DNA from: Deltaproteobacteria bacterium
Lineage (GTDB): Bacteria; Desulfobacterota; Desulfobacteria; Desulfobacterales; C00003060
DNA: 32,959 bases
Reading direction: 5' to 3'
NCBI GenBank assembly: GCA_030665585.1
Contig: DAOUZN010000005.1
Location: 1-32,959, forward strand
Under the pieces are notes generated by a model. It saw nothing but the letters and a program-made list of their open reading frames with translations. It was not told where the DNA came from and did not search any database. The translations under genes and the position numbers were made by a program. The stretch's first letter is position 1. Each line of letters opens with the position of its first letter. Below are positions 300 through 2,774 of this stretch, in pieces.

Positions 300-800
300 T
301 TAGTGGTCAAGCTTTTCCGCACAGCTCATACAGAAGTTAGCAGTAACGGGGTTTTTCGTGTCACAATGGCTACATAGAATATGCCTTTTCACTCTTTTCG
401 CCTTTTTCGGCTCAGTTGTAGACGTTGGCTTGCCGGACTTCTTCTCCTCATAATCTCTAATAGCTTCAGCAAGTGCCTTTGCCCCAAGGTTGGAACAGTG
501 CATCTTTTCTTTCGGCAGACCATCCAGGGCCTGTGCAACGGCCTTTCTTGTTATGGCTTTAGCCTCCTTAAGGGTTTTGTTCTTGGCCATTTCGCTGACG
601 ATGCTAGATACTGCAATGGCTGCAACACACCCGAACGTCTTGAATTTCACATCCGTTAGTTTGTCATCGTTGACTTTAATGTAGAATGTCATCATGTCTC
701 CACATACTGGATTGCCAACCTCGCCGATACCGTCGGCATCCTCTATAGCACCAGCGTTTCTCGGGTTTGAGAAATGATCTATTACCCGTTCTGAATACAT
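300..800 (-). CDS. iscU: IscU/NifU N-terminal-type Fe-S scaffold with C-terminal zinc-ribbon extension
   Basis: GNPVCGD, FKTFGC and MHCSNLG motifs (three scaffold Cys and the Asp), then a basic linker and CSHC-x11-CMSC ribbon. Confidence 0.92.
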   Translation of the reverse strand: MYSERVIDHFSNPRNAGAIEDADGIGEVGNPVCGDMMTFYIKVNDDKLTDVKFKTFGCVAAIAVSSIVSEMAKNKTLKEAKAITRKAVAQALDGLPKEKMHCSNLGAKALAEAIRDYEEKKSGKPTSTTEPKKAKRVKRHILCSHCDTKNPVTANFCMSCAEKLDH

Positions 801-826: not shown

Positions 827-1234
827 CTATTTATGGCTTCTAATCACATCAGACAAAGTCAACGAGTTTAGTTCATTATGCATAGCCCTCGTTGCTCTTT
901 CCCATATGCTGCGCGACAGGCAAGTCTCAGACCTGTCGCATATATCAGGGTCGCCAATACAACGAGACAAATCGATTCCGCCTTCAAGCAGCTTGACGAT
1001 TTCCCCCACAGTAATCTGTTCAGGAGGCTTTGCAAGCACGTGCCCTCCTTTGGGACCGCGCGCACTCTTGATATAGTGGGCTTTCTTCAATGGTATAATA
1101 AGTTGTTCCAAATACTTAACAGAAATACCCTCGCGTTCGGCAACGTCTCCTGTTTGCACATACCCGTCATTATAATGTTGAGCCAAATCCAACATCATTC
1201 TAATTCCATAGCGACTTCTAGTTGATAATTTCAT
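827..1234 (-). CDS. iscR: Rrf2/IscR-family transcriptional regulator
   Basis: MKLSTRSRYGIRMMLDLAQHY...GISVKYLEQLIIPLKKAHYIKSARGPKGGHVLAKP; three-Cys C-x5-C-x5-C-like segment (CIGDPDICDRSETC); start chosen at the internal ATG at 1234 rather than the longest ORF start. Confidence 0.9.
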   Translation of the reverse strand: MKLSTRSRYGIRMMLDLAQHYNDGYVQTGDVAEREGISVKYLEQLIIPLKKAHYIKSARGPKGGHVLAKPPEQITVGEIVKLLEGGIDLSRCIGDPDICDRSETCLSRSIWERATRAMHNELNSLTLSDVIRSHK

Positions 1235-1250: not shown

Positions 1251-2423
1251 TTATGCTGCGGTTTTTGTCCTCCAAATTGGGGAGAGTGAACGAAGTTTCT
1301 CAACAGCGACAGGAAGCTGATCCAGCACATATTGAATCTCATCGACCGTATTAGTGCCGTTCAGGGTAAATACCGCAGACCCTTGGGCCAAGTCAGGCGG
1401 AACACCAATTGCCACTAGAACAGGAGAGGTCTTAAGGGCCTTTGAAGCGCAAGCAGAACCAGTATTCACATAAATACCTTTTTGACTGAGCATAAAAACC
1501 AACGCTTCACCTTCAATGGCTTCAATGCAAAAGCTTGCATGGCCGGGTAGCCTTTTTTCTGGATGGCCCGTATATTTTACCTGCTCAATCCGGCCATGGA
1601 CCCCCGTCACAAGCCGGTCCCTGAGTTCCTTCACATGCTCAGCTTTATGAGGCAACTCTTGTGCAGCAAGCTCCGATGCCTTGCCAAGACCAACGATGGC
1701 AGGAACATTCTCGGTTCCAGCTCTCCTGCCGCTCTCTTGGATACCGCCATGAATAAGGGGCATCAATCTCAGGTTATTTCGGAAATAAAGTGCTCCAATC
1801 CCTTTAGGCGCGCCAAGAGAGACACCAGAAAGGCTCAGCAAGTCAACATTCAATTCATTGACATCGACTGGTATGTTGCCAACTGTGGCCACAGCATCGG
1901 TGTGAAAGACAACTCCTTTTTCTCTACAGATAGCTGAAAGGTCTGATATCGGCTCAATGGTCCCAATCTCATTGTTCGCATGCATAATTGAAACAAGGAT
2001 GGTCTCAGGCCTGATTGCTCGAGACAGACGTTCTGGATCTACCAACCCATGTTGGTCTACTTGGAGAAAAGTCACTTCGAAATCCATGCGTTCCAAGAAC
2101 CTGGCAGAATTAAGAACAGAATGATGTTCGATAGCGGAAATAATAATGTGCTTTCCCTTCTTTTGCCTAGCCAGGCCTATACCCTTAATCGCAAGATTAT
2201 TTGCCTCAGCACCAGAGGAAGTGAAAATAATCTCTCCCGCTTTGGCACCAATGAGTTCGGCTACCGTTGCCCTTTGTTCATCGATGACGTGCTTGATTCT
2301 TGAACCCATGTCATAGACCGTTGACGGGTTACCAAAATGCTCGTCAAAATAAGGCAGCATGGCTTCGACGACCTGTTTCCTTACAGGTGTTGCTGCCGCA
2401 TGATCCATATAGACCGTCTTCAT
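1251..2423 (-). CDS. IscS/NifS-family class V aminotransferase fold protein, predicted not to be a canonical desulfurase
   Basis: MKTVYMDHAAATPVRKQVVEAMLPYFDEHFGNPS..., HHSVL, SIMHANNEIGTIEPI, NTGSACASKAL; canonical SGHK-x-x-GPKG replaced by SGVSLGAPKG. Confidence 0.93.
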   Translation of the reverse strand: MKTVYMDHAAATPVRKQVVEAMLPYFDEHFGNPSTVYDMGSRIKHVIDEQRATVAELIGAKAGEIIFTSSGAEANNLAIKGIGLARQKKGKHIIISAIEHHSVLNSARFLERMDFEVTFLQVDQHGLVDPERLSRAIRPETILVSIMHANNEIGTIEPISDLSAICREKGVVFHTDAVATVGNIPVDVNELNVDLLSLSGVSLGAPKGIGALYFRNNLRLMPLIHGGIQESGRRAGTENVPAIVGLGKASELAAQELPHKAEHVKELRDRLVTGVHGRIEQVKYTGHPEKRLPGHASFCIEAIEGEALVFMLSQKGIYVNTGSACASKALKTSPVLVAIGVPPDLAQGSAVFTLNGTNTVDEIQYVLDQLPVAVEKLRSLSPIWRTKTAA

Positions 2424-2681: not shown

Positions 2682-2745
2682 GTCATGCTCCTTTCAGCAT
2701 TTGGGGGGGAATTAAATAATAATCTATTCTATACTATTTTGATAG

Positions 2746-2774
2746 AGAATAACCACCCTTTAGCCTGGTGTCAA
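2746..2774 (-). promoter_or_regulatory. Putative sigma70-type promoter of the tusA-like/iscS-like/iscR/iscU operon
   Basis: Reverse strand TTGACA (2774-2769), 17-nt spacer, TATTCT (2751-2746), upstream of the 2681 start. Confidence 0.5.

Follow-up and report, generated by a model that had tools for sequence, protein, structure and literature searches.

A lysine-less IscS homologue encoded with TusA-like and IscU proteins in a deltaproteobacterium, and its relatives in bacteria and archaea

The window, as the whole 32,959-nucleotide stretch of deltaproteobacterial DNA analysed here is called, carries an IscS/NifS homologue without the catalytic lysine (Lys-less; homologues that retain it are termed Lys-bearing). 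The open reading frame list and translation place the gene on the minus strand (Table 1); the initial annotation had given the same position and no strand. In minus-strand order the genes are TusA-like, Lys-less IscS, Rrf2 and IscU, separated by gaps of 9, 16 and 26 bp, and the Lys-less gene is the second of a predicted tight tusA-like/iscS/rrf2/iscU operon. This arrangement agrees with the IscU partnership proposed initially; the TusA-like gene directly upstream had been missed. The remainder of the window is mostly housekeeping in content (Mur ligase, deformylase, RNase HII-L19-TrmD-RimM-S16-Ffh, Era-like GTPase, TRAP transporter), and an Rfam search of the window found no element.

Upstream of tusA, an AT-rich dyad (TATAGTCTACnnAATTAGTATAGAT-like) overlies the -10 element of a TTGACA-type promoter, both in the window (2725-2774) and at loci L039, L043, L040, L042, L175 and L128. 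The dyad was not significant by shuffling when the window sequence was taken alone; its presence in relatives is suggestive, and it is a possible operator for the Rrf2 protein, which would regulate the operon.

Table 1. Positions in the window of the predicted operon, its genes and the codons discussed in the text
Feature	Position	Strand	Basis or remark
IscU scaffold (NifU_N), extended at the C-terminus by a zinc ribbon	300..800	-	retains Asp and all three ligand Cys
Rrf2/IscR-type regulator, 135 aa, three Cys in cluster-binding region	827..1234	-	profile match
Lys-less IscS/NifS homologue, 390 aa	1251..2423	-	Aminotran_5 5e-78; AlphaFold pLDDT 92.7; TM about 0.92-0.97 to IscS/Nfs1
Val351 codon replacing substrate-binding Arg354	1371..1373	-	alignment
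Lys328 codon, +3 from loop Cys	1440..1442	-	Lys/Arg in 68/76 Lys-less vs 11/110 Lys-bearing
Cys325 codon, loop cysteine kept (E. coli Cys328)	1449..1451	-	Cys in 76/76 Lys-less proteins
Val201-Ser202 codons (His205-Lys206 in canonical IscS)	1818..1823	-	V201 1821-1823, S202 1818-1820; alignment
Ala179 codon replacing Gln183	1887..1889	-	alignment
Ala72 codon replacing Thr76	2208..2210	-	alignment
TusA-like sulfur carrier, 82 aa	2433..2681	-	PF01206 7e-16; 9 bp upstream of IscS start
Putative operon promoter TTGACA-17-TATTCT, weak dyad 2725-2751 over -10	2746..2774	-	several relatives have a comparable layout before tusA

Active-site residues were compared by aligning the protein with E. coli IscS and with 186 homologues. 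The key residues of the E. coli reference sequence (K206, C328, H104, Q183 and R354) match the published numbers. The motif SGVSLGAPKG, the reverse complement of plus-strand positions 1800-1829, puts Val201 and Ser202 in the places of His205 and Lys206, as had first been read from the DNA, and the alignment bears out two further initial readings: replacement of the Gln of the DA(T/V)Q motif by Ala (Q183 to A179) and retention of the loop cysteine (C325, equivalent to E. coli C328). Other readings stood in part. Both arginines had been described as lost; the substrate-binding Arg354 is indeed Val351, but the Arg of the SLGR motif does not qualify as a catalytic loss, many Lys-bearing relatives reading FSLSI or TLSE. 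The phosphate-binding region is altered in the window protein (T76 to A72), but this change marks only a subset, with Ala in 32 of the 76 Lys-less proteins and Thr kept in 42. Residues kept with respect to E. coli IscS are H104 (H100), D180 (D176), N155 (N151), S203 (S199) and C328 (C325). As the Schiff-base lysine, His205, Gln183 and the substrate-binding Arg354 are all gone, the protein is most likely unable to make sulfur from cysteine.

The overall fold is kept, as had been claimed from the sequence: the protein matches PF00266 at 5e-78, and its AlphaFold model (mean pLDDT 92.7) matches human Nfs1, E. coli IscS and Archaeoglobus fulgidus IscS with TM values of about 0.92-0.97. The sole segment of the model with pLDDT below 50 is residues 326-328, directly after the loop Cys. 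The curated NCBIfam cut-offs were missed for both NifS (498.3 vs 530.75 bits) and IscS (397.9 vs 643.2 bits).

The loss of several active-site residues could by itself be the mark of a sequencing error or a decaying pseudogene. Close relatives of 79-85% identity, from the same genus and order, nevertheless have the same losses: the His-Lys pair is replaced by Val, Ala, Ile or Pro followed by Ser, Gln by Ala and Arg by Val, and the NTGSACASKAL loop is invariant. The dN/dS ratio against seven relatives was 0.045-0.092 (Nei-Gojobori). These values, together with intact frames, the same losses in many independent assemblies and a conserved operon, effectively rule out error or decay. Judged by these sequence comparisons, the gene is a conserved one under strong purifying selection. 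The initial interpretation of the concerted loss as repurposing rather than sequencing error is supported by that selection, by the relatives with the same losses and by the operon with IscU.

Homologues were drawn from GTDB genome contigs, from genomes of the window's phylum and from genomes of an ANME-2 archaeon's phylum. The 186 non-identical homologues read comprised 76 Lys-less and 110 Lys-bearing proteins, and all 29 new loci from the search of the window's phylum were Lys-less. Lys-less homologues span Desulfobacterota, Archaeoglobus-type archaea, ANME-2, Chloroflexota, Omnitrophota, Aquificota and Hydrothermarchaeota. The loop Cys, His104 and Asp180 are each kept in 76/76 of these proteins, and substrate Arg354 is lost in 76/76 and Gln183 in 75/76. 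Replacements of the His-Lys pair are diverse (ND, PA, VS, NQ, IS, SQ, HL, HR and more), so that no new conserved catalytic pair has taken its place.

Since the PLP-stacking His and the Asp are still present, the PLP pocket is not wholly erased, and PLP or PMP could still bind; recombinant A. fulgidus IscS reportedly carried PMP. The K206A variant of E. coli IscS is inactive yet still binds some PLP (PMC9978102), so the absence of the lysine is no proof that PLP is absent. These points would fit a protein with residual or altered PLP/PMP chemistry, in which the cofactor is held non-covalently, or another lysine such as Lys328 acts as the base, and a slow or different reaction takes place; Lys or Arg at the third position after the loop Cys, found in 68 of the 76 Lys-less proteins and 11 of the 110 Lys-bearing ones, would fit it too. 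Such chemistry is improbable, because the substrate Arg and the Gln are gone along with the Lys in essentially every member, and in E. coli IscS loss of either K206 or Q183 (K206A, Q183E) abolishes activity (PMC9978102). Lys328 was the only candidate near the loop for a replacement Schiff-base lysine and was rejected as not universal (Arg, Gln, Leu or Glu in 19/76 Lys-less proteins), and no invariant Lys was found in alignment A2.

An adjacent gene predicted to encode a TusA-like protein is the feature that best separates Lys-less from Lys-bearing homologues. On the same strand and within 2 kb, tusA was found beside 61/76 Lys-less genes vs 2/110 Lys-bearing ones, and both of the latter (L087 and L110, from Hydrothermarchaeota) are tandem neighbours of a Lys-less copy. 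Fifteen of the 76 Lys-less genes are without a nearby tusA, among them the crystallised A. fulgidus copy (L226); in two of the fifteen the contig or locus stops short, and one of these two is an incomplete view of the window. Nearby iscU genes accompany 66/76 Lys-less genes. Where a genome holds both kinds (for example G090 and G450), tusA is beside the Lys-less copy, and the Lys-bearing copy has iscU alone. The two Hydrothermarchaeota-type loci (L087:4582-7970 and L110:4586-7973) are unusual in their gene content, encoding in a row an IscS with Lys changed to Arg, TusA, a Lys-bearing IscS without Gln183, IscU, and another IscU-like protein whose ligands are altered (HPLCDD, NxCCK).

The catalytic Cys-Pro is 100% conserved among the TusA partners (n=60), as are the three Cys and the Asp among the IscU partners (n=63). 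The window TusA (P0003) scores above the PF01206 cut-off (58.3 vs 28.6 bits) and below the NCBIfam TusA cut-off (34.7 vs 78 bits); it keeps the catalytic Cys-Pro in a CPVH motif, the second Pro of CPxP being His. The window IscU (P0002) has the three ligand Cys, the Asp and the Lys of the IscS-binding loop, and thiols are retained in all three proteins. The equivalent of E. coli IscU K103 is a Lys in 98% of the partners, and charge reversal of K103 breaks binding to IscS (PMC2854127). On the IscS side, the C-terminal residues L377/R378/S381/P382 are invariant in alignment A2. The Lys-less protein probably still forms the IscS dimer, and IscU would dock via this conserved C-terminal region. The residues of E. 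coli IscS that contact TusA, W45 and E49, are S41 and H45 in the window protein; the exact E. coli TusA-IscS interface is therefore not conserved, and these docking residues proved uninformative. In the E. coli complex, TusA Cys19 lies about 4 Å from IscS Cys328 (PMC2854127), and one IscS dimer can carry IscU and TusA together in a heterocomplex (PMC11302665).

Several IscU proteins carry additional segments. The window IscU (300-800, minus strand) has a zinc-ribbon tail (CSHC...CMSC) that is present in most close relatives too. A Thermoplasmata IscU gene (L089:3703-5268) has a long intein-like insert between NPVC and CGDMM, and an ANME-2 IscU, beside a Lys-less IscS, is fused to a thioredoxin reductase-like flavoprotein domain (L072:7133-8518).

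A tree was built with the active-site columns removed, and the best tree has two changes between the Lys-bearing and Lys-less states. One Lys-less clade, the archaeal ND clade, is nested among Lys-bearing archaeal IscS proteins and contains A. fulgidus; the other, mainly bacterial and with 41 members (SH-aLRT 99), contains the window protein. Simple orthology with A. fulgidus IscS was set aside as the best tree separates the two proteins, although a single Lys-less clade, and so a single origin, was not rejected (AU p = 0.42). The A. fulgidus precedent named in the initial annotation is real, 4eb5 reading SSNDIYGPKG (PMC7585200), but a shared clade is not what the best tree gives. Because the Lys-less trait changes twice, perhaps once, the tusA association, though seen in many genomes, reflects few independent events, and independent-pair tests had no power with two changes.

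Lys-less IscS proteins are already known from A. fulgidus, from Methanosarcina acetivorans (IscS1) and from an Aquificales-type PDB entry. The A. fulgidus IscS2-IscU pair (PDB 4eb5, 4eb7, 4hvk; D199K mutant 4r5f) is likewise Lys-less, with HK changed to ND, Gln to Ala and Arg to Leu, and as in the window the loop Cys is kept and IscU is encoded next door. The A. fulgidus protein is about 46% identical to the window protein and belongs to the separate archaeal clade, and the crystallised copy, unlike the window gene, has no adjoining tusA. L226 matches this protein (4eb5) exactly over the fragment tested; a second, paralogous A. fulgidus iscS-iscU operon (L225) carries tusA, and no Rrf2 gene was detected near A. 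fulgidus iscS in the stretches read. A. fulgidus IscS has no desulfurase activity, and its Cys ligates the [2Fe-2S] cluster of IscU (PMC7585200). M. acetivorans IscS1 resembles the window protein in being without the catalytic Lys and encoded beside IscU1; it is archaeal, and the paper names four neighbour genes of unknown function and no TusA (PMC7585200).

The Aquificales-type entry 9wfy, which reads TAHLMYGPKG, is a Lys-less IscS that shares a large clade with the window protein but has Leu at the Lys position where the latter has Ser; 9wfe, 9wfb, 9wf8, 9wew, 9wer and 9wep, of the same series, have canonical residues at several of these positions. No publication on the 9wep-9wfy series was found among the open-access papers searched, and neither tusA nor iscU was found nearby in the two Aquificales loci read. 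In the Aquificales drafts G454 and G455 (L090, L109) a Lys-less protein was the sole IscS/NifS-type protein found, and a SufB was likewise not detected; as these assemblies are incomplete, the observation is tentative. The E. coli system has the same fold and partners and the same loop Cys, and structures of IscS in complex with TusA and with IscU have been solved (3lvj, 3lvl). However, E. coli IscS is an active PLP desulfurase from which TusA accepts sulfur, whereas TusA is the proposed donor in the window module. In E. coli, tusA also lies outside the isc operon. The MIS minimal ISC system (IscS and IscU) shares with the window a two-component core and an operon that lacks HscAB and ferredoxin, and differs in being described with a cysteine desulfurase (PMC12192291).

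Whether the genome also encodes a canonical IscS or SufS-type protein had been raised in the initial annotation. Two Lys-bearing NifS/IscS-type proteins (C76, C74) are indeed encoded in the window genome (1.88 Mb, 83% complete), along with one SufB, five TusA-like genes and a second IscU-like gene. With two such proteins in the cell, and IscS being a dimer, the Lys-less protein could be a regulatory pseudo-subunit that forms a heterodimer with a Lys-bearing IscS/NifS. This is very unlikely: the Lys-bearing copies are on other contigs and only about 46% identical to the Lys-less protein, and no Lys-bearing NifS/IscS-type protein was found among the strong PF00266 matches of the archaeal genomes G575, G482, G492, G501 and G590, each of which has a Lys-less copy. 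The lack of a Lys-bearing partner among such matches in the last four genomes and in A. fulgidus argues against a heterodimer role.

The explanation preferred here, which we consider rather probable, is that the window protein is a catalytically dead IscS that serves IscU as a platform, as a sulfur relay and/or by ligating its cluster, the sulfur coming from TusA persulfide or from sulfide. Its inactivity and its partnership with IscU are well-supported predictions, and from the gene association and retained thiols we infer a relay of sulfur from TusA to IscS. In such a relay the invariant loop Cys would take persulfide sulfur from TusA and hand it on to IscU. Alone or together with the relay, C325 may provide a fourth ligand for the [2Fe-2S] cluster that forms on IscU, in the manner of the A. 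fulgidus crystal complex. Sulfur would enter by way of TusA, loaded by another desulfurase or with inorganic sulfane sulfur, or as sulfide. A counterpoint to a TusA-fed relay is the opposite direction of sulfur flow in E. coli, where IscS passes sulfur to TusA.

The protein might instead do no more than hold IscU and ligate the cluster, in which case the sulfur would come from inorganic sulfide and TusA would have another or a regulatory role. The cluster ligation seen in A. fulgidus is consistent with this, as is the restoration of IscU-dependent Fe-S assembly by H2S in E. coli without IscS (PMC13015791), and dsrA was found in almost every Lys-less Desulfobacterota genome tested (all the relatives except G090). 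We regard this more limited role as unlikely, if still worth serious consideration, since it leaves unexplained both the strong bias of tusA towards Lys-less genes and the complete conservation of the TusA catalytic Cys. Furthermore, no dsrA was found in the window genome, which is 83% complete, or in G482, G492, G501 and G590, and sulfide from sulfate reduction is therefore not the general explanation. The sulfide-rich cell envisaged in the initial annotation has indirect support from the tested Desulfobacterota relatives, G090 excepted, but finds no dsrA to support it in the window genome or in several archaea.

Returning to the dead IscS as platform, relay and/or ligand, the question it addresses is where sulfidic anaerobes, several of which are without a canonical IscS/NifS-type desulfurase, obtain the sulfur of their Fe-S clusters. 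No earlier description of the breadth of Lys-less IscS and its TusA/IscU association, or of a TusA/Lys-less IscS/IscU module, was found in open-access papers, most subscription papers and preprints being outside the search. The co-occurrence of these genes across oxygen-avoiding bacteria and archaea suggests that Fe-S assembly in them is supplied by something other than a cysteine desulfurase of its own. A tentative generalization, which may or may not hold and which we would not yet favour, is that a desulfurase-free ISC module operates in many anaerobic bacteria and archaea, where a dead IscS would receive sulfur from TusA rather than from cysteine and relay it to IscU. If this is true, the TusA/IscS/IscU module or SufBC would be the sole route to Fe-S clusters in lineages without any Lys-bearing IscS. 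A. fulgidus, the best-studied precedent, has so far been treated as an oddity; a widespread Lys-less IscS, in which the Cys is never lost and tusA is strongly associated, would turn that oddity into a defined three-protein module with a sulfur route that can be tested with purified proteins.
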